A DNA stretch of 64,000 nucleotides from Archangium lipolyticum (GTDB lineage: Bacteria; Myxococcota; Myxococcia; Myxococcales; Myxococcaceae). Numbering within the stretch: position 1 is the stretch's first letter; the number at the start of each line of letters is the position of its first letter. Below the pieces are notes generated by a model. The model was not told the DNA's origin, ran no database searches, and worked only from the letters and a program-made list of their open reading frames with translations. Positions 3,180 to 58,158 of this stretch are shown in pieces. Where the stretch lies: NCBI RefSeq assembly GCF_024623785.1, contig NZ_JANKBZ010000018.1, forward strand, positions 1 to 64,000. Direction: 5' to 3'. Position numbers and translations under genes: made by a program.

Positions 3180-4205
3180 TTAGAATTCGCTGAAGTCAAG
3201 GTCAACGATCGGTCGGCGCCACGAAAGCCCACGCTTCTTCAGGAACTCATCCACCATGAAGTGAAAGTACTCCGAGGTTCCCGGGAAGAACAGCCGCCAG
3301 TGGCCGCTGTCTCCGTGTTGATCGGGCTCCCGGTAATCGACGAAGCGGTGCGCCTGAAGAATGCGAAGCTCTCCGTCCAAGTCCGGATAACGCAATATGC
3401 GCTTGAGCCGGTCTGTATTTACGCGGAAGCGGTCGTCTCCAAAGTGCCTCTGCTCGTCGTCGTCGCGCCTCTCAATGAGGACGGCGAAGAACTCCCGGGT
3501 TATGCGAGGCAGCTTGGCCAGTTCCGCAGCGAGCGCGCGGAAATCCTTCTCCACGGCCTCTCTCGTGAGGCCCGTTTGCACCACCTGCTCCGAAGCGGCG
3601 TAGCGCGCGAAGTCGGACAGCTTCGGTTGTGGGATCTTCTCGATATAGTCGTAGATTGTCGTCGGGTATTTGCCTTCCTCGTCGGGCACCTCGAGATCGA
3701 TCTTCACGCTCGCGGTCTCTTTGCGCACATGGTCGTAGAGCGACTGGAGCCGGTCGATCGGCAGGTCCATGGCGAGTTTGCAGAGATCGTCAACGTCTAG
3801 AACGTTACCCTCCGTGAAGCCGGTCCGCAGCTTCTGATCATCGTCCAGGGAATAGGTCGATTGCTTCTTGCCTACGACAAGCACCCTGATGCTCGTGTAG
3901 TCGCGCAACTGATCGTCGGTAATCTTGGTCAAGGTCTCGTTTACCTTCGCAGATGTCTTCTGCGAGGTGATCTGGAACGCCCAGCCCTTGACCACATCGG
4001 CGAGGTCGAGCCCGGGGAAGTTGCTCCGCTCTTGGTTCATGTTCTCGAGGTTGATGTCGAGAAGGAGGTTCAGTGCAGTCTTGAAAAAATTCTCGACGAA
4101 GAGGTTCAGGTCGGTCAGACCAAGCTTCGTCCGCGTGTCGACTTGGTGAGCGATGTCGCTGAGCCCATCGACGATCTCGCCTATGAAGTACCCTCGGGTG
4201 ATCAT
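3180..4205 (-). CDS. SMEK-domain protein, restriction-endonuclease-like
   Basis: A 341-residue protein. Its N-terminal ~100 residues match the SMEK domain pattern as I know it: VENFFKTALNLLLDINLEN, then ERSNFPGLDLADV, then AFQITSQKTSAK. The spaced E38, D67/D70 and Q78-x-T...K83/K87 fit a PD-(D/E)xK nuclease core of the QxK variety, which is an inference. The middle is helical and the C-terminus (DDDEQRHFGDDRF, HWRLFFPG) has no family I recognise. SMEK proteins occur in conflict and defence contexts. The gene's base composition is clearly poorer in GC and its third codon positions less biased than its neighbours, a sign of recent transfer. A TetR-type palindrome sits 21 bases upstream of the start. 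The cognate target is unknown. Confidence 0.7.
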   Translation of the reverse strand: MITRGYFIGEIVDGLSDIAHQVDTRTKLGLTDLNLFVENFFKTALNLLLDINLENMNQERSNFPGLDLADVVKGWAFQITSQKTSAKVNETLTKITDDQLRDYTSIRVLVVGKKQSTYSLDDDQKLRTGFTEGNVLDVDDLCKLAMDLPIDRLQSLYDHVRKETASVKIDLEVPDEEGKYPTTIYDYIEKIPQPKLSDFARYAASEQVVQTGLTREAVEKDFRALAAELAKLPRITREFFAVLIERRDDDEQRHFGDDRFRVNTDRLKRILRYPDLDGELRILQAHRFVDYREPDQHGDSGHWRLFFPGTSEYFHFMVDEFLKKRGLSWRRPIVDLDFSEF

Positions 4206-4225
4206 TTATTTCCTTTCGCGCGGTT

Positions 4226-4239
4226 TGACCGAACGGTCA
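4226..4239. promoter_or_regulatory. Palindromic operator candidate (TetR-type)
   Basis: TGACCGAACGGTCA: two 6-base arms (TGACCG/CGGTCA) around AA, 21 bases upstream of the SMEK gene start. The sequence resembles typical TetR-family operators. No TetR-family gene is present in the window, so the regulator would lie elsewhere. Confidence 0.4.
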
Positions 4240-4332
4240 GCTCTAAGCACCTGGACATAGGTACTGTCCACCCCCACCGGCGAAGCCGCTGAGGCACAAC
4301 GTGGACAGAAACCATGTCCGGGGGCTTAGAGC
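4240..4332. repeat. Nested inverted repeat, MITE-like or IS-end relic
   Basis: Two 32-base arms, 4240-4271 and 4301-4332, are inverted copies of each other with 27 of 32 positions matching, separated by 29 bases. Each begins GCTCTAAGC at its outer end, and each contains its own inverted repeat of GGACA-7 bases-TGTCC (4253-4269 and 4303-4319, starts exactly 50 bases apart). It abuts the operator-like palindrome on the left. The structure resembles paired insertion-sequence ends with the inside deleted, or a double binding site. No transposase is nearby and no target duplication is evident. Confidence 0.65.
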
Positions 4333-4398
4333 AGATCCGGCCCCGCGGCCCGGGCATCCCGAAGTACTGTGGGACGCCCGGAAGCGGGTCACTCTGGA

Positions 4399-5745
4399 CT
4401 AGCGCTCGACCTTCGGCGCCCGGGCGCGTAGCACCTCTGCCACATCGACGATGGGCACCCGAGGCCCAAGGACCTTGCGCAGGCGTTTGAGGACTGCACG
4501 CGTGTCCGTCCCCGCCTGATACGCAGCGTATATAGCGATGAGGCCCTCAGGCCACCGCACGGACGCCAAGTCCTCGACATGGGTGCCGCTGGTGAGCCCG
4601 ATGATACCCACGGACGGGGTGGAGCTGCCGGCGGGTGCGCCCCAGATCGCGCAGAAACCAAGGAAGTTGATCATGTGGCTTGCGATGACAATGGCCGTGA
4701 GCGTCTCGACCTTCCGGCCCTGAAGCACGGCCAACGCCGCCTCATCTGCCAGCAGGAGGCCGTCCGTCCGCCAGGGCCGCGGCCACTTCACCGTCGACCT
4801 GCTGATCGGCTTGCCCGTCTTCACGCCTACGGCCTCGGCACTGGCCATCGCGCACACCGCACCGAGCGTCCCGTCTGGCTCGTAGCCGCGCACGGCCAGC
4901 CGATAAATGTCGGCCAGCCGCGGGGAGCCCCACCAGGTGCAGGGCTTCTCCTCGTACGACGGCAGCCAGCGGGCCACCCCCGTTGCCGCGAGCCTGCCCA
5001 CGTCGAGCCGTGCTGCGGGGAAGACCGTCTTGAAGAGGTACTCGGTGGAGGGGTCGGTGGCCAACGAGGGCGCGTCGAGCGGCTTCGCCGCATCCCAAAG
5101 CGCCTGGACATCCGCGCGAGGCGGCCGCTGGTTGAAGTCCGTTCGGGAGAAGGTCATCTGCGTCAGACTTGAGGGGCGCGCCAGTTCGCGCTCCTGGTCT
5201 TCAGCCGTACGCCGCATCCGAGGCGGCCATTGGCCCGCGTCGAGCGCGGCTTCCTCGTCGGCCGTGAGCTCGCGCAGATCCTCGATTTTCACGACGCCGT
5301 GCGGGCCCTTGCCGTCGATGAACTTGAGTGTGGCCCGGTACGGCGAGCCCACGTAGTCGTGCCGCAGCTTGCGCACGATGCCCACGCGCCCACGGTGTTT
5401 GGTGCTCTGCGGGTTAAGGGGCTCCACCACGCACTTCATCCCGACGCGTACCGTCCGGGTGACGAGCACCCGGCCACGCCACATCTGGAGGGTGTAGCTC
5501 TGGGTGGGGTCACTGGTGAAGTAATCGGCCTTCTCGTCGAAGAACCTCAAGTCCCGCTTCGCGGGCTCAGACACCAAGGGCTGAACGTTTTCTGGTGCTT
5601 CGGGCGCCGGCAGCACGGCATGAGCGCCGTGCTCCTGGGCGCCCTCGGCGCTCGCTTCGAGCTGCCGCAAGGCTTCGCGATACGGCACACCGAGCTTCGC
5701 GGCACGCTCACGAACGATCTGCTTCCACTTCTTGTTCTGGGTCAC
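4399..5745 (-). CDS. Phage/plasmid-type protein with a degenerate Toprim-like region
   Basis: A 448-residue protein when started at the GTG at 5745, which has GAGG about 10 bases upstream; the frame is open to 5901. The N-terminus is a short basic helical segment (TQNKKWKQIVRERAAKLGV). Residues ~75-175 contain an SH3-like stretch (RGRVGIVRKLRHDYVGS) and the C-terminal ~170 residues, from GSPRLADIYRLAV through IYAAYQAGTDTRAVLKRL, follow the layout of Toprim domains of phage primase/helicase proteins: a strand of WPRPWRTDGLLLADE type, then a helix and an A-Y-x-A-G-T-D-T segment where active Toprims have D-x-D. The acidic pair is not conserved, so catalysis is doubtful. This family assignment is weak. 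It is convergent with nothing and lies between the inverted repeat and the integrase module. Confidence 0.6.
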   Translation of the reverse strand: MTQNKKWKQIVRERAAKLGVPYREALRQLEASAEGAQEHGAHAVLPAPEAPENVQPLVSEPAKRDLRFFDEKADYFTSDPTQSYTLQMWRGRVLVTRTVRVGMKCVVEPLNPQSTKHRGRVGIVRKLRHDYVGSPYRATLKFIDGKGPHGVVKIEDLRELTADEEAALDAGQWPPRMRRTAEDQERELARPSSLTQMTFSRTDFNQRPPRADVQALWDAAKPLDAPSLATDPSTEYLFKTVFPAARLDVGRLAATGVARWLPSYEEKPCTWWGSPRLADIYRLAVRGYEPDGTLGAVCAMASAEAVGVKTGKPISRSTVKWPRPWRTDGLLLADEAALAVLQGRKVETLTAIVIASHMINFLGFCAIWGAPAGSSTPSVGIIGLTSGTHVEDLASVRWPEGLIAIYAAYQAGTDTRAVLKRLRKVLGPRVPIVDVAEVLRARAPKVER

Positions 5746-6359
5746 GGATCCATCCTCGACGCGACAAGGCACGACGGACCCCTGCTCCCGTGCCTTGGCG
5801 AAGGACGGAGCTTCACAGCAAGCCCGAGGAATCGAATCCCCTTTGCCCTCCCAAATGGTGGCCAGGCAGGGGCTGACCAACGAGGGTTCCGCGGCAGGCA
5901 AACGCGGTATCGCGGAAGATGCCGCAGCAGCCGTGGCTCGTCAACAACAGGTCCGAAGGGAGGTTCGCGGCCTTCGCCTGCGTTCAAACGCCGTGGGCAC
6001 AGGCCCCCCTCGGCCTGGGTGGTGGGCCTGGGGTACATCGGGTCGAGGCGAGGTTCCCTTGACAGAATGTGAGTTCGGGATGAATTTCCAGGAGTTGGAG
6101 CGGGCTGAGCGAATCGCCTGTCCGCATCCATATCGAGGGCCCGCCAAGGCGGACTGCGGCGCTCCGGCGGCACGGCCGGGACCGCGAACTCACCAGCACG
6201 AGGAAGGCCACCGGGCCGACCTCGGCACATGGCAGCAGTGGACGAAACAAAGGGAGCCACGCTCCGGCAGTAAGGCCGGGCGGCACTTTGAACCGATAGC
6301 TGACCTCGCGGCGCAACGCCGCACCTGACAGGTCAGCGCTTCGCAGTGAAGGCGCCGGC
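5746..6359. other. Gene-free stretch upstream of the integrase module
   Basis: About 614 bases without a supported gene. It contains TTGACA at 6059-6064, a possible -35 without a convincing -10, and the short palindrome ACCTGACAGGT at 6322-6332, about 30 bases before the excisionase-like gene, where an autoregulatory site would be expected. Nothing else stands out. Confidence 0.35.
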
Positions 6360-6614
6360 GTGCCCCGGCGCATCGGTGAAGTTTTGTCTCAGCAGAACAA
6401 CGAAACGGGAACCCCTGCCCCCCTCCCGGAAGTGCTCACCGTAGAGGAGGCTGCGGCCTTCCTGCGGGTGAACCGGAAGACCTTCTACGAAGCCGTCCGC
6501 CTGGGCAGCGTCCCGGGTGTCATCCGCCTGGGTAGGGTCATCCGCATCAGCAAGGCTGCCCTGATAAGTTGGATCCAGGGTAACGGCGGTCCTGCGCTCG
6601 GAGAGAAGCGATGA
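6360..6614 (+). CDS. Excisionase-type HTH DNA-binding protein
   Basis: An 84-residue protein with the helix-turn-helix 17 / excisionase fold: LTVEEAAAFLRVNRKTFYEAV, VPGVIRLGRVIRISKAAL, and a final LISWIQGNGG helix. Such proteins bend DNA at attachment sites and set the direction of tyrosine-recombinase reactions. Start is GTG at 6360; an in-frame TTG 24 bases later is possible and neither has a strong SD. The gene overlaps the integrase start by four bases (ATGA), so the two are translationally coupled, which supports a recombination-directionality role. Confidence 0.8.
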   Translation: MPRRIGEVLSQQNNETGTPAPLPEVLTVEEAAAFLRVNRKTFYEAVRLGSVPGVIRLGRVIRISKAALISWIQGNGGPALGEKR

Positions 6615-7720
6615 GCGTCAGGCTGCGGAAGTGGAAGACGAAGGAGGGCAAGGTGCAGGCGGCGTGGTGGGTCGATGTGATGTTCCAGCACCCGGACGGG
6701 CGCGTGGATCGCGTGCGCAAGGCGTCCCCGGTGAATACCCGCCGGGGTGCCGAGCAATACGAGCGGGAGCTGCGTCAGGCCCTCCTGGGCGGCTCCTACA
6801 ACCAAAGGGAGGCCGAACCGGAGATGCCCACCGTGAGGAGCTTCACGGAGCGATTCCTCACGTACAGCTCCAACAACAACAAGGCCAGCACCCTGGCCGC
6901 CAAGAGGCAGTTGCTCGACAGCCACCTGCTGCCGACCTTCGGGCACCTGCGGCTCGACCGCGTCGGACCGGCGGACATCGAGACGTTCAAGTCCCAGAAG
7001 CGCAAGGAGGGACTCGCCTCCAAGACGATCAACAACGCGCTCACGGTGCTGCGCACCCTGTTCGCGGTCGCCGCCGAGCAGGAGGTGCTCCCCCACGTGC
7101 CGCGCGTGAAGCTGCTGAAGGTGGAGAGGCCGGAGTTCGACTTCCTCACCTTTGAGGAGGCGGAGCGCCTGGTGGCCGCCGCGCCCCCGGAATGGCGGAC
7201 GATGATTCAGGTGGCGCTCCACACGGGCCTGCGGCGCGGCGAGCTCATCGCCCTCCAGTGGGACGCGGTGGACCTCGTCGCCGGTCGCCTGCTGGTGAAG
7301 CGGAACGTCTGGCGCGGCCACTTCGGTACGCCCAAGGGAGGCCGCTCGCGCGAGGTGCCGCTCAACGCGGTGGCCCTCCAGGCCATCAAGGCGCACCGGC
7401 ACCTCCGCGGGGCCTTCGTCTTCTGCGATGCCACAGGCGCCTACCTCAAGAACGACACCTGCCGGAACGCCATCCTCCGGGCCAGCAAGCGGGCGGGCCT
7501 GCGTCCCATCGGCTGGCACACGCTACGGCACAGCTTCGCCAGCCATCTCGTGGCGCGCGGCGTGCCGCTCAAGGCCGTCCAGGAACTGCTCGGGCACGCC
7601 ACCATCGAGATGACGATGCGCTACGCCCACCTCAGTCCGGACGTGAAGAAGGACGCCGTGCGCGCGCTCGAGGGGCACACTGACGGCACATGGCGCGGGA
7701 CGGGAGAGAATCCTCAGTAA
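6611..7720 (+). CDS. Tyrosine recombinase (integrase)
   Basis: A 369-residue phage-type integrase that cuts and rejoins DNA at attachment sites through a covalent 3'-phosphotyrosine. An N-terminal AP2-like arm-binding part (residues 1-60) precedes the SAM-like core-binding domain (~75-165) and the catalytic domain (~175-355). The catalytic set is complete: R208 (GLRRGE), K242, H303 and R306 (HTLRHSF), H329 (LLGHA) and nucleophile Y338 (MRYAH). Its stop codon is only 17 bases from the 3' end of tRNA-Leu, the classic arrangement of an element inserted in a tRNA gene. It is coupled to the excisionase-type gene. Nothing suggests inactivation. Confidence 0.95.
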   Translation: MSVRLRKWKTKEGKVQAAWWVDVMFQHPDGRVDRVRKASPVNTRRGAEQYERELRQALLGGSYNQREAEPEMPTVRSFTERFLTYSSNNNKASTLAAKRQLLDSHLLPTFGHLRLDRVGPADIETFKSQKRKEGLASKTINNALTVLRTLFAVAAEQEVLPHVPRVKLLKVERPEFDFLTFEEAERLVAAAPPEWRTMIQVALHTGLRRGELIALQWDAVDLVAGRLLVKRNVWRGHFGTPKGGRSREVPLNAVALQAIKAHRHLRGAFVFCDATGAYLKNDTCRNAILRASKRAGLRPIGWHTLRHSFASHLVARGVPLKAVQELLGHATIEMTMRYAHLSPDVKKDAVRALEGHTDGTWRGTGENPQ

Positions 7721-7760
7721 ATTCAACCACTTAGGAATGCACGAGCCGGGGATCGAACCC
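7721..7760. other. Probable attachment-site junction at tRNA-Leu 3' end
   Basis: The bases between the integrase stop and the T-arm of tRNA-Leu are where the att core is expected, with the element on the left and the original chromosome on the right. The integrase lies directly against the tRNA 3' end, the gene is intact, and no second copy of the tRNA end (pattern CGAGCCGGGGATCGAAC) is present in 1-7720, so the other junction must be outside the window. The exact core cannot be set from one side. Confidence 0.45.
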
Positions 7761-7823
7761 GGACGGCCCCTTCGGGCCTGCGGATTTTAAGTCCGCTGCG
7801 TCTGCCAGTTTCGCCACTCGTGC
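7738..7823 (-). tRNA. tRNA-Leu (anticodon UAA)
   Basis: An 86-nucleotide class II tRNA read on the minus strand. Acceptor stem GCACGAG/CTCGTGC with discriminator A, D-arm with AACTGGCAGACGC, anticodon stem GCGGA/TCCGC with loop CTTAAAA giving anticodon UAA, a long variable arm (GGCCCGAAGGGGCC hairpin) and T-arm with GGGTTCGATCCCC. CCA is not encoded. It serves as the integration target of the element on its 3' side and is divergent from ffh. Confidence 0.95.
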
Positions 7824-7898
7824 AGGCGGCAGGGACACCATCTCTCAACGGCTGAACGACTGCAACGCACATGGGCATCCCGTCCACGCCACCGCTGT

Positions 7899-7904
7899 TA
7901 TATA
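7899..7904 (+). promoter_or_regulatory. Candidate -10 element of ffh
   Basis: TATATA lies ten bases upstream of the ffh start codon. If used, transcription would begin about 3-5 bases before the ATG, giving a nearly leaderless message; no SD precedes that ATG. On the other strand the same bases read TATAAC and could serve the divergent tRNA. No good -35 is visible. Confidence 0.25.
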
Positions 7905-7913
7905 GCGACCGCC

Positions 7914-9560
7914 ATGCTTGAAACCGTCGCCAAGGGCTTCCGCGCCGCCAAGAACCGCCTTGCGGGCAAGAGTGAAATCACCCCCGAGATGGTGGATGAG
8001 TCGCTCCGCGACATCCGCGTCTCCCTGTTGGAGGCCGACGTCGCCTTCGATGTGGTGAAGAAGTTCGTCGCGCGCGTGCGCGAGAAGGCCGTCGGAGAGG
8101 TCGTGCAGACGACCATCACGGACAAGGCCGGCCGCAAGCACCGCGTCAGCGCGGGCGACCACTTCGTCAAGATCTGCCACGACGAGCTCGAGGCCCTGAT
8201 GGGTCCGGTGGATACGAGCCTGCAGCTCAAGCCCAAGGACCAGGTCAGCGGCATCATGATGGTGGGTCTGCAGGGCTCGGGTAAGACGACGACCACGGGC
8301 AAGCTCGCCAGCAAGCTGCTCAAGGAGGGTCGCAAGCCTCTGCTGGTGGCTGCGGACATCTACCGGCCGGCGGCCGTGGACCAGCTCAAGGTGCTGGGCG
8401 AGCGGCTGAAGGTGCCTGTGTACTTCGAGCCCAACGTGCCGCCACCGGAGCTGGCGAAGCGCGGGTACGCCGCGGCGCGCGAGCAGAAGTGCGACGTGGT
8501 GCTCATCGACACCGCGGGCCGCCTGGCCATCGACGAAGCGTTGATGACCGAGCTGGAGGCCATCAAGGGCAACGTCCGGCCGGACAACATCCTGCTGGTG
8601 TGCGACGCGATGATTGGCCAGGACGCGGTGCGCACGGCGGCCGAGTTCGATCGGCGCCTGAGCCTGGATGGCTTCATCCTCACCAAGCTGGACGGTGACG
8701 CACGTGGTGGCGCGGCACTGTCGATCAAGGAGGTGACGGGCAAGCCCATCAAGTTCCTGGGCATGGGCGAGTCGATGGACAAGCTCGAGGAGTTCCGTCC
8801 GGACGGACTCGCGAGCCGGATCCTGGGCTTTGGCGACATCGTGGGCCTGATGAAGGACTTCGAGGGGGTCGTCGACGAGAAGAAGGCCGCGGAGGACGCG
8901 CAGAAGCTCCTGTCGGGCAACTTCACGATGAAGGACTTCGTCGAGCAGATCCGCATGGTGCGGCGGATGGGCCCGCTGAAGGATCTGCTGGAGAAGTTCC
9001 CGCTCTTCGGCGAGCTGACGGAGCAGCTGAACCCGGACGAGAAGGAGCTGACGAAGATCGAGGCGATGTACGACTCGATGACGGAGCAGGAGCGCCTGCG
9101 TCCGAACCTCATCACCGACAGCCGGGTGAAGCGCATCTCGAAGGGCAGCGGCCGCAAGCCCGAGGAGGTGCGCGAGCTGCTGCAGAAGTTCGGGATGATG
9201 CAGCAGGTGATGGGGACGATCGGCCAGAACCCGGGCCTGCTGGGACGAATCCCCGGCTTCCGGCAGATGGGTCAGCTGGCGCAGATGAAGAACATGGACA
9301 TGTCGAGCATCTTCGGAAAGGACCCGAAGATGATGGAGAAGGCGATGGCCGGCATGGGCATGGGCGGAATGCCGATGCAGCTGCCGCAGATCGCCCCCGG
9401 CTACACGCCGCCGATGGGCCAGGCGGCCATGGCGAAGGCGCGCATGATGGGCTACGCCCCGCCCTCGGCTGCGGGCGCCAAGTCCGAGAACAAGGACGCC
9501 ATCAAGGAGCGCCGCAAGCGCGAGAAGGAAAACAAGAAGAAGAACCGGAAGAAGAAGTAG
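7914..9560 (+). CDS. ffh: Signal recognition particle protein Ffh
   Basis: A 548-residue SRP54-type GTPase that binds signal sequences of nascent membrane proteins and, with 4.5S RNA and FtsY, delivers ribosomes to the Sec translocon. N domain helices (residues 1-~95) precede the G domain with P-loop GLQGSGKTTTT (~117-127), DTAGR, and TKLDGDARGG. The M domain follows from about residue 300 and is Met-rich (MMQQVMGTIGQNPG, GRIPGFRQMGQ, and MEKAMAGMGMGGMPMQL). At 548 residues it is about 100 longer than E. coli Ffh; the excess is a Met/Gly/Pro-rich stretch and a strongly basic tail ending in KENKKKNRKKK. It is monocistronic by spacing, followed by a hairpin. Confidence 0.97.
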   Translation: MLETVAKGFRAAKNRLAGKSEITPEMVDESLRDIRVSLLEADVAFDVVKKFVARVREKAVGEVVQTTITDKAGRKHRVSAGDHFVKICHDELEALMGPVDTSLQLKPKDQVSGIMMVGLQGSGKTTTTGKLASKLLKEGRKPLLVAADIYRPAAVDQLKVLGERLKVPVYFEPNVPPPELAKRGYAAAREQKCDVVLIDTAGRLAIDEALMTELEAIKGNVRPDNILLVCDAMIGQDAVRTAAEFDRRLSLDGFILTKLDGDARGGAALSIKEVTGKPIKFLGMGESMDKLEEFRPDGLASRILGFGDIVGLMKDFEGVVDEKKAAEDAQKLLSGNFTMKDFVEQIRMVRRMGPLKDLLEKFPLFGELTEQLNPDEKELTKIEAMYDSMTEQERLRPNLITDSRVKRISKGSGRKPEEVRELLQKFGMMQQVMGTIGQNPGLLGRIPGFRQMGQLAQMKNMDMSSIFGKDPKMMEKAMAGMGMGGMPMQLPQIAPGYTPPMGQAAMAKARMMGYAPPSAAGAKSENKDAIKERRKREKENKKKNRKKK

Positions 9561-53165: not shown

Positions 53166-53263
53166 AAATCGACTTTCTGTTTTTGGACCCCTGCCGTGTC
53201 CCTACGGACGAATGACCCGCACCGGCCATGGAGGCCGGGCGGAAACCCGAGGGGGACCTACCC

Positions 53264-54256
53264 ATGACGCTGCGCAAGAACCTGCTGTTCGCCGCCCTGA
53301 TGCTCGTTGGCTGTGGCCGTATGGACCGCGAGGAGGAGTTCCGTTCCGTGCTCCCCACCCAGGAGCTGGTGGAGGTGAAGACGCCACAGGAGAGCGGCCA
53401 GGCGCTGGTGGTGGATGACGTGAGCGCGCAGGCCGGGGAGGGACGGACGAGCGACCTCTACCAGCTGACCCGCCGCACCACCGCGGTGGTCAACGGCGGC
53501 ACGCTGGCGGTACTGCGTCTGGTGGACGCGGTGACGAAGCACAAGCCCACCACCGTCACCGAGGACACCGCGGTGTGGGGCCCGCACACGGAGGCGCTGG
53601 CCCGCAACACCTGGAAGCTCACCGTGAAGAAGACGGGCGACAACACTTATAGCTACACCGTCTCGGCCAAGGCGAAGACTGCGGACGACTCGGCTTTCGT
53701 GGACGTCATCACCGGCACGCATACCGCCGCGCTGAACGAGGCCGGCGAGCCGATGAGGGGCTTCGGCCAGGGCGAGCTCACCCTCGACTGGGACCGGCAG
53801 CGGACGCTGCCCGAGAACGACGACAACGTCGGCCGCATGACGGTCAAGTACTCGCGCCTGGACGACAAGAGCGCCGCCACCGTGGACGCGGCGTTCCGCC
53901 AGGTGCGTGACGACCAGGACGCCACCCGGCGCGCGGACGCGGACTACCGCTACGCCGCCACCCCGGGCCAGGGCGGTGAGTTCAACTTCAAGCTGACCCA
54001 GGACTGGTACAAGCCGGACAACACCACCAGCCAGCTCGAGGTCCTCACCATCAAGAGCCGTTGGCAGCAGGGGGGCGCTGGCCGCTCGGATGTCCGGCTG
54101 TCGGGCGGGGACCTCGTCGGCGAGGCCACCGTCAACGAGTGCTGGGACACGAACTTCATCAGCCGCTTCATGCGCGCCAGCTATGACCCTCGGGTGGGCT
54201 ATGGCACCGAGGCCACCGGCTGCGTCTTCACCCCGGCGGCCTACTCCACGTTGTAA
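53264..54256 (+). CDS. Lipoprotein A of the caspase/ECF operon
   Basis: A 330-residue lipoprotein: signal peptide MTLRKNLLFAALMLVG with lipobox C17. The mature part is beta-rich with no known domain (VWGPHTEALARNTWKLTVKK, GQGELTLDWDRQRTLPEN, EFNFKLTQDWYKPDNT). Four blocks are shared with the lipoprotein at 57199: LPT(Q/R)E near the N-terminus, K-(R/K)-PTT..VWGP, GTH/GTF with GqGeLTL/GEGTVQL, and SRW..GG.G....GGDL..A...ECWD..F at the C-terminus. GGGGGAC is placed before the ATG at 53264. It leads the operon with a 27-base gap to the sigma factor gene. Confidence 0.8.
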   Translation: MTLRKNLLFAALMLVGCGRMDREEEFRSVLPTQELVEVKTPQESGQALVVDDVSAQAGEGRTSDLYQLTRRTTAVVNGGTLAVLRLVDAVTKHKPTTVTEDTAVWGPHTEALARNTWKLTVKKTGDNTYSYTVSAKAKTADDSAFVDVITGTHTAALNEAGEPMRGFGQGELTLDWDRQRTLPENDDNVGRMTVKYSRLDDKSAATVDAAFRQVRDDQDATRRADADYRYAATPGQGGEFNFKLTQDWYKPDNTTSQLEVLTIKSRWQQGGAGRSDVRLSGGDLVGEATVNECWDTNFISRFMRASYDPRVGYGTEATGCVFTPAAYSTL

Positions 54257-54283
54257 GCTCGGGGGAGCCCACTCCGTAACCCC

Positions 54284-54835
54284 ATGAGGCAGCTCTTGTC
54301 GGGAACGCCCCAACCGGCCCTGAAGGTCATCGACGGTGGTCAGAAGGATCGGCGCGCGTTCCTGCGCGAGCTGTACTCGGCATATGGCGGCAGCGTGTAT
54401 GGACGTTGCCGCTACCTGTTGAAGGACGCCACCAAGGCGGAGGACGCGATGCAGGAGGTGTTCGCCCGCGCCCTCACCCACTCGAATGAGTTCCGCGCCG
54501 AGTCCTCGCCGCTGGCGTGGTTGATGAAGATCGCCACCCACCACTGCCTCAACCAGCTGCGCTCGGAGCGGGCGCCCTGGCGGCGCTGGTTCGAGCGGGA
54601 CGAGCTGGCCCGCCCCGAGGGAGACCGGGGGGCGCAGGTGATGGAGACGCGGGAGCTGGTGCGCGCGCTCCTGTCCCGGGTGGACCTGGAGACACAGACG
54701 GCGGTGGTGCACTACTGGGTGGATGGAATGACGATGGAAGAGGTGGCCGCGGTGCTGGGGCGCTCGGTGCCCACGGTGCGCAAGCGGCTGGAGCAGTTCG
54801 CCACCCTGACGAACGAGGAGCTGAAGGTCCCATGA
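54284..54835 (+). CDS. ECF RNA polymerase sigma factor
   Basis: A 183-residue extracytoplasmic-function sigma factor. Region 2 spans residues ~25-95 (ELYSAYGGSVYGRCRYLL, KAEDAMQEVFARAL, SPLAWLMKIATHHCLNQL), and region 4 spans ~130-180 with the helix-turn-helix GMTMEEVAAVLGRSVPTVRKRL. The linker is Arg/Glu-rich. It overlaps the anti-sigma gene start by four bases (ATGA), so the two are made in step. No known group number can be given; it belongs to the class with a zinc anti-sigma partner. Probably autoregulates this operon. Confidence 0.93.
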   Translation: MRQLLSGTPQPALKVIDGGQKDRRAFLRELYSAYGGSVYGRCRYLLKDATKAEDAMQEVFARALTHSNEFRAESSPLAWLMKIATHHCLNQLRSERAPWRRWFERDELARPEGDRGAQVMETRELVRALLSRVDLETQTAVVHYWVDGMTMEEVAAVLGRSVPTVRKRLEQFATLTNEELKVP

Positions 54836-55584
54836 GCGCGCACCTGTCGGAGTGGACGCTGCGGCGGCTGCACGTTGGAGAGCTCCCCGAAGCGGAGTCC
54901 CAACGCGCCCGGGAGCACGTGGCCGCCTGCGCGGAGTGTCACGCGGTGCTCGCGGGCCTCGAGGCGAACCAGGCCCGGTTCGAGGCGGAAGTGCCCTTCG
55001 AGCGCTTCGCGGCCGGGGTGGAGCGCATCGTGAAGGAGGGGCCGGCGGAGAAGACAAGGCCCCGGCTCAATGGATTGCTGGTGGCGGTGGCGGCCACGGT
55101 GCTGCTGGCCGTGGCGGTGCGTCCGCTGCTGTCCGAGCCCCCCGCGGGCAACCGGCTCAAGGGAGGCGCGTCGGCGGAGCTGCGCATCGGAGGCAACGGG
55201 CCCCAGCGCGCCGTCCTGCCGGGCGACACCGAGGAGTTGCTGCCGGACGAGCAGGTCCGGCTGGGGTACGTGGCGGGGACGTACCGGTACGTGCTGGCGG
55301 TGTCGGTGGACGAGGCCGGCGTGGTGTCGTCGCTCTACCCCGAGTCGGGGCCGAGCCTTCCCGTGGAGGCGGGCGCCGGGAGGCACTGGCTGCCCGACAG
55401 CGTGGCGTTCACCCCCGGGGGTTACGAGCGCGTGGTGATGGTGCTCTCCGAGAAGCCGCTGGAGGCGGAGGCGGTGGCCGCCGAGGCGCGGCGGGCCTGG
55501 GAGGCCGCCGGGAGGAAGGTGGAGGCCATGACCTCGCTGGGCGTGGACGGCGAGGAGACGCACTGGCTGCTGCGCAAGCCATGA
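54832..55584 (+). CDS. ZAS-type anti-sigma factor with DUF4384-like domain
   Basis: A 250-residue membrane protein. The N-terminal anti-sigma zinc motif is H-V-A-A-C-A-E-C (H-x3-C-x2-C), residues ~30-37. One transmembrane helix (LLVAVAATVLLAVAVRPLL, ~80-98) separates it from a periplasmic beta-rich domain (RAVLPGDTEELLPDEQVRLG, YVLAVSVDEAGVVSSLYPE) like DUF4384. The motif and membrane topology fit a sensor that binds the neighbouring sigma factor until a signal arrives. It overlaps the genes on both sides by ATGA. A site-1-type cleavage motif cannot be recognised. The frame is open further upstream, but only the ATG at 54832 gives the ZAS motif at the correct distance. Confidence 0.88.
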   Translation: MSAHLSEWTLRRLHVGELPEAESQRAREHVAACAECHAVLAGLEANQARFEAEVPFERFAAGVERIVKEGPAEKTRPRLNGLLVAVAATVLLAVAVRPLLSEPPAGNRLKGGASAELRIGGNGPQRAVLPGDTEELLPDEQVRLGYVAGTYRYVLAVSVDEAGVVSSLYPESGPSLPVEAGAGRHWLPDSVAFTPGGYERVVMVLSEKPLEAEAVAAEARRAWEAAGRKVEAMTSLGVDGEETHWLLRKP

Positions 55585-57185
55585 GACGCCTCGTGGGCTA
55601 CGGCCAGGCGCTTGCCCTGGTGGTGCTGCTGCTGGCCGCGGCCGTCCGGGCGGAGACGCCGCACCGCTTCGCGCTGGTGGTGGGCAACGACGAGGGCGGC
55701 GCGGACACCCGGCCGCTGCGCTTCGCCCGGGACGACGCGCGCAAGATGCACGACCTGCTGCTGCGGCTCGGCGGCGTGGCGCGCGGCGACGCGCGGCTGC
55801 TGTTGGACCAGGACGCGGAGGACTTCCACCAGGCGCTGGCCGAGCTGGAGACGGGCGTCCGGGCGGCGCGGGCCCGGGGCGAGCGCACCGCGCTCATCGT
55901 CTACTACTCGGGCCATGCGAAGGACGGCTCGCTGCGGCTGGGGGACAGCGCGGTGGAGCTCGAGGCGCTCAAGCGCCGGCTGTCGGCGGCACCCGCGGAC
56001 ATCCGCATCGCCATCCTGGACTCGTGCCGCTCGGGGGCGCTCACGCGGACGAAGGGGGCCCGGCGCGCGCCGGCCTTCGCCATCGACGCGGGGGCGCCAC
56101 GGGAGGCGCGGGGGCTCGTCATCCTCACCTCCAGTGCGTCGGACGAGGACTCGCAGGAGTCGGACCTGCTGCGAGCCAGCTACTTCTCCCACCACCTGGT
56201 CAGCGGGCTGATGGGAGACGCGGACCGCTCGGGCGACGGGCAGGTGACGCTCTTCGAGGCCTACTCCCATGCCTACGCCCGCACCGTGGCGGACACCGCG
56301 GACAGCAGCGCCGGGCCCCAACACCCCACCTTCAGCTACGACCTGGCCGGCAACGGCGACCTGGTGCTGACGGACCTGCGGGTACACGACGAGGGACTGC
56401 TGGTGCCCGCCACCGCGCCCGCCGGGGCCTACTACTTCGTGGATCCGCGAGGCGCCGTGGTGGCCGAGCTGGACAAGGCCGCGGACTCGGAGCGGCGCGT
56501 GGCGCTCGCCCCGGGCACGTACACGGTGAAGCGCCGGCTGCCGGACCGGCTGCGCATCGGCCTGGCGGAGGTCCGGCGCGGGCGCACCTCGGTGCTCGAC
56601 GAGTCGCTGCTGCGCGACGCGCCCTTCTCGGATGACCCGGTGAAGGGCGCACCGCCTCGGGAGCGCGCGCTCCGCACGGCCTGGACGCTGGGGCTCACCG
56701 GCGGCTACCACTCCTTCTTCGATGCGCCCACGCGCGAGAACCTCTTCCTCTCCACCCCGCTGCTGGGCCTGGAGGTGGGCCTGCACCACTACTTCCGCGA
56801 GAACTGGCGCTGGGACTTCGATGTCTCGCTGGGAAGCCAGCGGGCCACCCTGGAGCTGCCCACCCTCTCGGGCCTGGACTACCGCTACTCGCTGCTGACG
56901 GTGGGCACCTCGCTGGTGGCCGAGTGGCCCCTGGGCAGGGTGTCGCCCTTCGTCGGGGCGCGGCTGTCCTATCTGGTCATGGTCCGAGACTTCGAGGACG
57001 CGAGTCTCCCGGACCAGTTCTACGCGGTGCTCACCCCGGGCCTCGTGACGGGCGTGCACTGGCGGCTCCTGGAGCGCTTCGAGCTCACCGGACGCGCCCG
57101 CGTCCATTACCTCCTCTACAACGTCGATGCGAAGCGCTCCCTGGGCTATTGGGAGCTCGGGGCGCTCCTGACGTACCGCCTCTGA
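55581..57185 (+). CDS. Exported caspase-fold protease fused to a C-terminal beta-barrel
   Basis: A 534-residue protein. Signal peptide MRRLVGYGQALALVVLLLAAAVRA, then a caspase/peptidase C14-fold domain (~28-270) with HRFALVVGNDEGG, the catalytic His in VYYSGHAKDG (H112) and catalytic Cys in LDSCRSG (C149), so the dyad is intact. A beta-rich linker (~280-365, AGAYYFVDPRGAVVAEL) leads to a C-terminal ~170 residues of alternating amphipathic strands (AWTLGLTGGYHSF, WRWDFDVSLGSQ, RYSLLTVGTSLV) ending in LLTYRL, typical of an outer-membrane barrel. Caspase domains fused to a barrel are unusual. The ATG is within the anti-sigma stop (ATGA) and the gene is part of the sigma operon. The protease would face the periplasm; its target is unknown. 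Confidence 0.88.
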   Translation: MRRLVGYGQALALVVLLLAAAVRAETPHRFALVVGNDEGGADTRPLRFARDDARKMHDLLLRLGGVARGDARLLLDQDAEDFHQALAELETGVRAARARGERTALIVYYSGHAKDGSLRLGDSAVELEALKRRLSAAPADIRIAILDSCRSGALTRTKGARRAPAFAIDAGAPREARGLVILTSSASDEDSQESDLLRASYFSHHLVSGLMGDADRSGDGQVTLFEAYSHAYARTVADTADSSAGPQHPTFSYDLAGNGDLVLTDLRVHDEGLLVPATAPAGAYYFVDPRGAVVAELDKAADSERRVALAPGTYTVKRRLPDRLRIGLAEVRRGRTSVLDESLLRDAPFSDDPVKGAPPRERALRTAWTLGLTGGYHSFFDAPTRENLFLSTPLLGLEVGLHHYFRENWRWDFDVSLGSQRATLELPTLSGLDYRYSLLTVGTSLVAEWPLGRVSPFVGARLSYLVMVRDFEDASLPDQFYAVLTPGLVTGVHWRLLERFELTGRARVHYLLYNVDAKRSLGYWELGALLTYRL

Positions 57186-57198
57186 CAAGGAGCGCGTG

Positions 57199-58158
57199 AT
57201 GCGGACCTGCTGGCTCCTCCTCCTGGGCTGCTTCACCGCCTCGTGTGGTGGGAACTTCTCCAACGACGACCTCGAGTTCCTCAACGCCCTGCCCACGCGC
57301 GAGGACCTGACCGCCAAGCTTCCCGGGACCGGGGAGTCCGTGAGCGAGCAAGGCCTCGGCCAGCGCACGGAGCTTCAGGCCCTGGGGAACATCTCCCAGC
57401 GCTACGTGGAAACGCGCAGGGTCTCGGACGAGTTCAACACCGGGCTGGACGGACTGCTCACCGTCCTGGAGCGCATCCGGAAGCTGCGGCCGACGACGCG
57501 CGCATCGGAGCTGCGCGTCTGGGGACCCTGGGACGACGCGGAAATCTCCGGCCACGAGCTGCGCTTCGTGATGAACCGCGAGCCCGAGCAGTTCAGGTAC
57601 CTGCTCCAGCTCCGCCGCAAGGGTTCAGGCGAGGAGGGCTGGTGGAGCGCCGTGATGGGGACCTTCAAGCCGGAGGGCGGGCTGCGCAAGGGCGAGGGCA
57701 CCGTGCAGCTGCTCCTCGCGGAAGCGAGGGACCACGGTTACGAAACGAAAGGGCACAGGGACCTGGATCAGCTGAACATCCTCTACCAGACGCGCGCGCT
57801 GCCCATCCGCGTGCAGATGCACTTCGTACCCTCCGAGCGCTCGCTGAAGCCCGAGTTCATCTACACATACCGTGAGATTCCCGGGGGACTGGCGGAGATG
57901 GCGTTCCTGATCCGCGACGTCGACATGATCCTCGGAGGACGGAGGGAGGACGTGGCCATCGTCAGCCGATGGACTCGCGACCAGGGGGGCGTGGGGTTCG
58001 CGTCGGTGACGGGCGGAGACCTGCCCGCGGGACGCACCGCCAACCAGGTGGAGTGCTGGGATGCCAGCTTCCGCCTCACCTACTCGAAGCGGAGCTGGGA
58101 TGACTCCGAGGAGGGCAGTGCCTCGACCTGCCCGGACGTGTCCGCGCTGGAGGACTGA
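57199..58158 (+). CDS. Lipoprotein B, paralogue of the operon's first lipoprotein
   Basis: A 319-residue lipoprotein; the lipobox is either C11 (LLLLGC) or C16 (FTASC). It shares four blocks with the first lipoprotein, including LNALPTRED near the N-terminus, RPTTRASELRVWGPW, and SRWTRDQGGVGFASVTGGDL...ECWDASF, so the two descend from one gene. ATG 57199 is chosen over GTG 57196 because AAGGAG is 5 bases away. It follows the caspase-barrel gene by 13 bases and is probably the last gene of the operon. No catalytic motif. It may be a sensor ligand or a substrate of the caspase domain, which is an inference. Confidence 0.8.
   Translation: MRTCWLLLLGCFTASCGGNFSNDDLEFLNALPTREDLTAKLPGTGESVSEQGLGQRTELQALGNISQRYVETRRVSDEFNTGLDGLLTVLERIRKLRPTTRASELRVWGPWDDAEISGHELRFVMNREPEQFRYLLQLRRKGSGEEGWWSAVMGTFKPEGGLRKGEGTVQLLLAEARDHGYETKGHRDLDQLNILYQTRALPIRVQMHFVPSERSLKPEFIYTYREIPGGLAEMAFLIRDVDMILGGRREDVAIVSRWTRDQGGVGFASVTGGDLPAGRTANQVECWDASFRLTYSKRSWDDSEEGSASTCPDVSALED

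Follow-up and report, generated by a model that had tools for sequence, protein, structure and literature searches.

A five-gene operon of Archangium lipolyticum in which an exported caspase and a membrane-spanning anti-sigma factor carry the same short motif

The window analysed here is a stretch of 64,000 nucleotides from Archangium lipolyticum (contig NZ_JANKBZ010000018.1, positions 1 to 64,000), whose genome comprises 12.6 Mb; it is a myxobacterium, that is, one of a group of predatory soil bacteria. The element in question spans positions 53264-58158, where five genes, all on the + strand, encode a lipoprotein (lipA), an extracytoplasmic function (ECF) sigma factor, a zinc-type anti-sigma factor, an exported caspase-fold protease and a second lipoprotein (lipB) that is a paralogue of the first. 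The intergenic gaps are 27, -4, -4 and 13 bases in this order. A first-pass annotation of the same DNA had proposed these five co-directional genes, with these gaps, as one transcription unit whose anti-sigma factor carries a signal inward; the genes were found as placed, and their sequence features agree with a single unit and with an anti-sigma factor able to pass a signal across the membrane.

The sigma factor gene (54284..54835, + strand) encodes regions 2 and 4, and its product exceeds the Pfam cut-offs for Sigma70_r2 (5e-15) and r4_2 (4e-7) as well as the NCBIfam cut-off for TIGR02937 (5e-20). The anti-sigma factor (54832..55584, + strand) consists of a zinc-type N-terminal domain, one transmembrane helix (a hydropathy peak at residues 82-100, about 55075-55131, + strand) and a DUF4384-like periplasmic domain (about 55246-55458, + strand). 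Its zinc finger remains under the Pfam cut-off (zf-HC2, 18.4 of 22.2 bits), yet the family profile matches the solved anti-sigma factors ChrR (E = 6e-6) and RsiW (2e-3) and chain 3hug_B, a conserved membrane protein (4e-5), in line with the earlier assignment. The N-terminal domain, the adjoining ECF sigma gene with its 4-base overlap, and the single transmembrane helix together point to a zinc-type (class I) anti-sigma factor. The DUF4384 match is weak in the window (E = 0.099); in two sister anti-sigma factors it reaches 5e-5 (below the cut-off) and 2.9e-9 (L125, above the cut-off). DUF4384 has also been reported in some cyanobacterial orthocaspases (PMC7475262) and in alphaproteobacterial pseudo-orthocaspases (PMC6426788).

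The caspase gene (55581..57185, + strand) encodes a signal-peptide-like start, a C14 domain (55665-56336, + strand) and a beta-rich C-terminal region. The C14 domain matches PF00656 with 44.4 bits against a cut-off of 21.4 (2e-11), and the catalytic His112 (55914..55916, + strand) and Cys149 (56025..56027, + strand) are invariant in a 12-row alignment (A3). The profile match and the His/Cys dyad assign the protein to the C14 caspases/metacaspases, and the fold and the intact dyad noted at first reading are thus confirmed at the level of sequence. Among caspases of comparable gene triads (see below), 84 of 87 fit a text pattern for both residues, and the other three show a His and a Cys in the stretch inspected. 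The best relative of the family profile in the Protein Data Bank (PDB) is metacaspase-4 (6w8s, 1e-12). By analogy with this plant enzyme, AtMC4, Asp147 (56019-56021, + strand; 11 of 12 rows) and Glu189 (12 of 12 rows) presumably form an acidic S1 pocket and would be equivalent to AtMC4 Asp137 and Asp352. A structure model computed from four sequences has a mean predicted local distance difference test score (pLDDT) of 45 and is poor in the C-terminal region. The last residue is F, W or Y in 22 of 54 caspases of the non-focal type, compared with 10.5% of 478 genes, and in 1 of 31 caspases of the focal type. It is plausible that the C-terminal beta region anchors the caspase in the outer membrane.

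The two lipoproteins, lipA (53264..54256, + strand; lipobox Cys17) and lipB (57199..58158, + strand; lipobox Cys16), are homologous, as had been proposed (27% identity, E = 8e-16), and have in common a Cys in an ECWD motif and a second Cys near the end. For lipA, one long helix followed by 13 beta strands is predicted. Pfam and NCBIfam scans assigned neither protein to a family over the cut-off, and the PDB contained no sequence relatives at E <= 1. The structure model of lipA (mean pLDDT 67.6) matched no PDB fold at E <= 0.001; the top rows, porins with a TM score of about 0.2, were not counted.

A lipA match is present in 46 of 59 genomes, including that of the window. We examined 61 loci (60 fetched loci and the window) representing 43 genomes; some lipoprotein matches on short or split contigs were left out (for example, in G007, G030, G016, G031, G008 and G057), and genes at the homologue loci were called by greedy selection of non-overlapping open reading frames. 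The complete order lipA, sigma, anti-sigma, caspase, lipB was found at 27 loci in 27 genomes. Five other loci hold the central three genes with one lipoprotein, three hold caspase and lipB and are partial or cut, and 26 hold a lone lipoprotein. Across the 27 operons, 4-base overlaps join sigma and anti-sigma genes in 22 and anti-sigma and caspase genes in 19. In another class of the phylum, genome G189 (L362) has the full five-gene operon with the promoter-like motif described below before lipA, and G192 (L363) has anti-sigma, caspase and lipB at a contig end. Because the same order recurs in 27 of 61 loci and at one locus of another class, the arrangement does not result from chance. The related question of whether the lipoproteins mostly occur without the sigma and caspase genes has a divided answer: they stand alone at 26 of 61 loci, but 34 of the 43 genomes hold at least one caspase-linked copy, and nine have lone copies only.

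Upstream of lipA by 62 bases lies a promoter-like motif of the -35/-10 type, TTTCTGTTT-N13-GTGTCC (53174..53201, + strand). The pattern TTTC(T/C)NTT...GTGTC recurs upstream of lipA in 25 of the 27 five-gene operons, where shuffled sequences lead one to expect 0.01, and the two operons that miss it (L066 and L063) match a looser pattern. Note that these same upstream regions supplied the pattern that was later counted in them, so the count describes these regions and is no independent test. Control of the unit from one such motif is probable, and we infer that the operon's own sigma factor reads it. The motif was found in 2 of 4 loci with sigma, anti-sigma and caspase genes and no upstream lipA. 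L068 has no upstream sequence. The lone or partial group (26 lone loci and three partial operons) has it in only 2 of 29 cases (L064 and L080), and the idea that lone lipoproteins are under the same motif was rejected. With fixed spacing, the strict motif gives 14 matches in 6 of 12 genomes, as against 2 for the reversed pattern, and misses some operons with a spacing one base shorter (e.g., in G002). In the genome of the window it has four sites, namely, the one in the window, two back-to-back at a caspase paralogue on C5, and one on C27, and the reversed pattern has none.

Several loci with or without the motif are recorded here as separate observations. The fourth genomic match (L120, G000:C27, 5405-5432) lies near another sigma gene, and a similar match occurs in L121 (G003). 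Two operons appear to have decayed: in L064 (G036, 6363-8046), lipA with the motif is followed by a lipB fragment, and in L046 (G004), the motif remains upstream of the sigma gene and lipA is gone. Three lone lipA homologues (L042, L047 and L082) have upstream regions that look alike by eye, with neither caspase nor motif.

The central three genes belong to a wider family. All nine PF00656 caspases in the genome of the window adjoin an ECF sigma gene and an anti-sigma gene, although in the C5 copy the anti-sigma factor is a stub of about 63 residues. Caspase profile matches are present in 166 of 195 genomes of the phylum. From about 140 caspase matches in relatives, 40 regions on long contigs were fetched, and a tally by eye of the 41 caspase genes in them gave 27 with both neighbours, 2 with the anti-sigma gene only (L166 and L171) and 12 with neither; apart from at least three exported caspases of the same type (named below), these last are mostly different proteins. 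Of 55 sigma/anti-sigma/caspase triads, 43 are followed within 150 bases by a gene in the same direction, and this next gene carries a lipobox in 25 of the 43 cases, compared with 66 of 599 genes of like regions. The association itself has been noted before: sigma factors occur in 4 of 5 metacaspase operons of M. xanthus according to a survey of 2012 (PMC3501461).

What ties the caspase to the anti-sigma factor is a short motif present in both. In the anti-sigma factor, R108-L-K110-G111 (55153..55164, + strand) lies just outside the membrane and, given its conservation and covariation, is proposed as a cleavage site; in the caspase, R156-T-K158-G159 (56046..56057, + strand) lies in the linker after the catalytic Cys and is presumed to be a self-processing site. 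K-G, usually R-x-K-G, directly follows the transmembrane helix in 84 of 86 triad anti-sigma factors (53 of 54 in non-focal triads), the exceptions being K-S (L059) and R-G (L309). At L309 (G148), Arg replaces Lys at P1 in both partners, since the caspase loop also has R-G. Only six columns of a 12-row alignment (A4) reach a conservation of 90% or more, K110 and G111 being two of them; the row that deviates is L319, which has no adjoining caspase. Of the 86 caspases, 77 have K-G, mostly R-x-K-G, no more than 34 residues from the catalytic Cys; the remaining nine comprise one at a contig end, seven of the long-loop subgroup described below, and L309. For these counts, two truncated loci with no membrane helix in the gene model (L092 and L196) were dropped, which reduced 88 triads to 86; in L077, L199 and L302 the helix was positioned manually, and L164 was searched from its first residue. 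L077 is counted within the 84 despite its doubtful gene model, and where two K-G pairs occur (L163 and L284), the pair with which the periplasmic domain begins was taken.

R-x-K-G is found in 32 of 34 anti-sigma factors and 32 of 35 caspases of the focal type, as against 1 of 32 sigma factors, 4 of 52 lipA-type homologues and 4 of 34 lipB-type homologues, the window's lipB being one of these four. The suggestion that the lipoproteins are substrates of the caspase is not supported by these numbers, and lipoprotein cleavage was dropped as a candidate for want of a conserved site, whereas the functional tie between caspase and anti-sigma factor, likewise suggested at first reading, gains from the shared and covarying site. 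The stretch in the caspase appears comparable, by analogy, to the linker of AtMC4, in which Lys225 sits in the active site and cleavage there constitutes self-processing (PMC7206013). MaOC1 is reported to process itself at Arg219 (PMC7475262).

A long-loop subgroup of caspases (L124, L163, L170, L178, L180, L182, L188 and L189) shows a different arrangement: the Asp two residues before the catalytic Cys is replaced, and the longer linker, inspected by eye, contains K-S, K-A or K-G. The next gene at these loci encodes a lipoprotein with a start that looks similar in each.

Zinc-finger anti-sigma factors that adjoin a sigma gene and have no caspase served as controls. In the genome of the window and seven others, K-G follows the helix in 1 of 23 such proteins; in twelve genomes (several incomplete) that lack a match to the triad-caspase profile, it does so in 0 of 21. 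The filters (length, helix, sigma neighbour and absence of a caspase) reduced 53 loci to 23 and 30 loci to 21, and the segment searched after the helix was 63 residues in the triads and 50 and 53 residues in the two controls. In addition, two full-length anti-sigma factors of the same type that have a sigma gene and no caspase nearby have lost the Lys (L319/L358 and L328/L364): the sequence is R-L-R-P in G044, whose two other caspases have partners of their own, and G-A-T-G in G080, a genome that is 79% complete.

The residue at P3, that is, position -3 of the motif, was scored as Arg or not Arg in both partners. The table holds 84 triads (L077 and L081, the latter at a contig end, are excluded), and for the eight long-loop caspases the letter was assigned by pattern or by eye. 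In the 54 non-focal triads, both partners have Arg in 28, neither has it in 19, and 7 are discordant (Fisher 5e-8). When one triad per cluster is kept, P = 8e-6 at 60% identity (35 clusters) and 3.5e-4 at 50% (22 clusters). With the long-loop subgroup removed, the values are 1.5e-5 (46 triads) and 8.5e-4 (21 clusters at 50%). On a caspase tree of 59 tips, 7 changes at P3 of the anti-sigma factor and 9 at P3 of the caspase share 4 branches in the same direction (P = 6e-4); this test treats branches as equal, and one of the four shared branches lies near the midpoint root and subtends a clade of 45 of the 59 tips. The genome of the window has 8 complete pairs, and the partners agree in 7 of them: both have Arg in 5, neither has it in 2.

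Because protease and anti-sigma factor carry the same short motif, it is suggested that the former opens the lock formed by the latter, and an enzyme and its substrate with like sites would be the simplest account of the shared motif. We therefore favour, as probable though far from certain, an autoregulated envelope switch in which the caspase cuts its own anti-sigma factor at K-G and frees the sigma factor. In the resting state, the zinc-type anti-sigma factor would keep the ECF sigma factor at the inner membrane, and the exported caspase would be held as a zymogen, perhaps tied to the outer membrane via its C-terminal beta region. An envelope signal would cause the caspase to process itself after Lys158 (R-T-K|G) and then, as a site-1 protease, to cut the anti-sigma factor after Lys110 (R-L-K|G) outside the membrane. 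Further proteolysis, presumably by a housekeeping site-2 protease, would release the sigma factor, which would transcribe all five genes from lipA to lipB from the conserved promoter. The likeliest roles of the two lipoproteins would be to sense or adjust the caspase at the outer membrane, or to serve as the main output. Gene order, motif conservation, and the shared and covarying site are what the sequences provide; cleavage, the direction of signalling, autoregulation, localisation, and the lipoprotein role are inferred from them.

Several points weigh against this switch. The support consists throughout of sequence comparison. The P3 covariation falls to P = 0.015 at 45% identity (14 clusters) and 0.37 at 40% (7 clusters), and 7 of the 54 non-focal pairs disagree; because the signal is lost at the coarsest clustering, shared ancestry has been removed only partly. 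In the long-loop caspases the site was located by eye, and K precedes S or A in most of them. At least 3 of the 12 caspase genes with neither neighbour encode exported caspases of the same type (L187, L190 and one in L193). Conversely, an orphan anti-sigma factor in G035 (L359, sigma/anti-sigma at 4897-5628) keeps L-G-V-K-G with no caspase in 11 kb; an orphan caspase in the same genome (L187, 3859-5424) carries L-G-E-K-G, and because both occur in one genome, they may be a split pair. Finally, an outer-membrane barrel is unsupported by the low-confidence caspase fold model, and Pfam revealed no barrel family in the six caspases scanned.

The main rival, which explains most of the same data and ranks above the other alternatives, is that R-x-K-G of the anti-sigma factor sits in the caspase active site as a pseudo-substrate and inhibits the caspase; the anti-sigma factor would then govern the protease instead of falling victim to it, another protease freeing the sigma factor. 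Conservation and covariation would fit docking without cutting, and the active site of AtMC4 is blocked by Lys225 as long as this residue is uncut; however, the same Lys also gets cut (PMC7206013), and the segment adjoining the membrane would be the simplest place at which to release the sigma factor. We regard this lock as unlikely overall. Less likely again is that caspase and lipoproteins are effectors in developmental lysis, predation or envelope remodelling, the sigma/anti-sigma pair providing transcription control only and the site being incidental: the survey of 2012 suggested a role in developmental lysis of Myxococcus (PMC3501461), and the 26 lone lipoproteins among 61 loci suit such a role, but the covarying site and its rarity in caspase-free anti-sigma factors would be left unexplained. 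A housekeeping Lys-specific third protease that cuts both caspase linker and anti-sigma factor would account for one motif on two proteins, but we consider it very improbable, because the pairs of one genome would all face that same protease, yet P3 changes together within each pair (with agreement in 7 of the 8 complete pairs in the genome of the window), and because the Lys is lost in two anti-sigma factors that have no caspase neighbour.

An extension of the envelope switch is that each exported caspase cuts only its own anti-sigma factor, so that a genome would run parallel, insulated gates with coevolving sites that mimic the activation loop, lipoproteins at the outer membrane as sensors, and signalling rather than killing as the outcome. 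We put this forward tentatively, as a possibility that may well fail. To our knowledge, bacterial caspases have few known natural substrates, and caspase proteins are often discussed as death enzymes. One reported substrate is an antitoxin that MaOC1 cuts (PMC7935541). For many enzyme-substrate pairs across Myxococcota, the sequences analysed here predict which protein is cut, where it is cut and what the readout would be. If the switch is real, caspases would be site-1 proteases of envelope signalling, and the paralogous pairs would form a natural set for the study of protease specificity; if the gates are insulated, a role in gene-expression signalling may be ancestral to the caspase fold.

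ECF anti-sigma factors that span the membrane and are released by regulated proteolysis are established in the RseA/DegS and RsiW-type systems. The envelope switch proposed here resembles them in its membrane-spanning anti-sigma factor and outer-side site-1 cut, and would differ in that the site-1 protease is an operon-encoded caspase. Site-1-type proteolysis of membrane anti-sigma factors is also mentioned in PMC10028731, which describes the CRISPR-associated Csx29-Csx30-CASP-sigma system. In that system, a caspase-family CHAT protease cuts the inhibitor of an ECF-like sigma factor; it differs in being RNA-triggered, in its unrelated inhibitor, and in using a CHAT protease instead of an exported C14 protein. 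The neighbours of the caspase genes did not suggest Cas7-11 or Csx30, for which no directed search was made. In ECF54 (PMC8999054), a CHAT, subtilase or carboxypeptidase gene lies near the ECF sigma gene and proteolytic control was proposed; this group is described as having no anti-sigma factor, and its caspase-family protein is CHAT rather than an exported C14 caspase. AtMC4 (PMC7206013), the nearest solved relative by profile, shares self-processing at a linker Lys, but is a calcium-gated plant enzyme, and the relevant passages of that paper do not connect it with a sigma factor. The EACC1/EACC2 systems (PMC8195603) have caspase domains, and in some cases an ECF sigma gene lies close by; the caspase of the window scores 66 of the 140 bits required by caspase_w_EACC1 (NCBIfam), a result obtained with no separate search for EACC proteins. 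A reading as a defence system was dropped, the PADLOC matches being weak only (caspase 3e-4, mad1 7e-3).

The first-pass annotation had stated that no system of this composition was described, which is correct only in part. Operons that unite a sigma-70 factor and a metacaspase gene were noted in 2012 for Myxococcus, Anaeromyxobacter, Haliangium, Sorangium, Ralstonia and Fibrobacter (Asplund-Samuelsson 2012, PMC3501461), but the operon section of that survey names no anti-sigma factor, lipoprotein pair, promoter, cleavage site or mechanism. Searches of the open-access literature in PMC turned up no exported, operon-encoded caspase gate with a lipoprotein pair and a coevolving site; the ECF reclassification published in NAR in 2021, which may describe a caspase-neighboured ECF group, is outside this scope. 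Site-1-opened membrane anti-sigma factors, the release of an ECF-like sigma factor by a CHAT protease, and CHAT genes near ECF54 are already known. New here, as judged from the sequences, are the K-G site of the triad anti-sigma factors, its counterpart in the linker of the caspases, and the covariation of the partners.

Some paralogues differ from the unit in the window. In L116 (G000:C5, 5987-8586) and L117 (G003), sigma and caspase paralogues accompany an anti-sigma factor that matches only over about its first 63-66 residues; there is no membrane helix, K-G site or lipB, and the promoter motif is shared with the unit. A divergent three-gene operon with weak, below-cut-off matches to PSCyt2/PSCyt3 and DUF1501 faces the caspase operon in L116 (8559-12272) and in L119 (G004, 4129-7711). 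A back-to-back copy of the motif lies between the two operons in G000 and G003, so the paralogous sigma factor may act on the divergent operon. Lastly, in L215 (G000:C27, 2-655 and 965-2244), a weakly matched sigma/anti-sigma pair lies by a divergent, weakly caspase-like gene that is outside the nine PF00656 matches; this anti-sigma factor has T-K-A soon after the helix and K-G further on.

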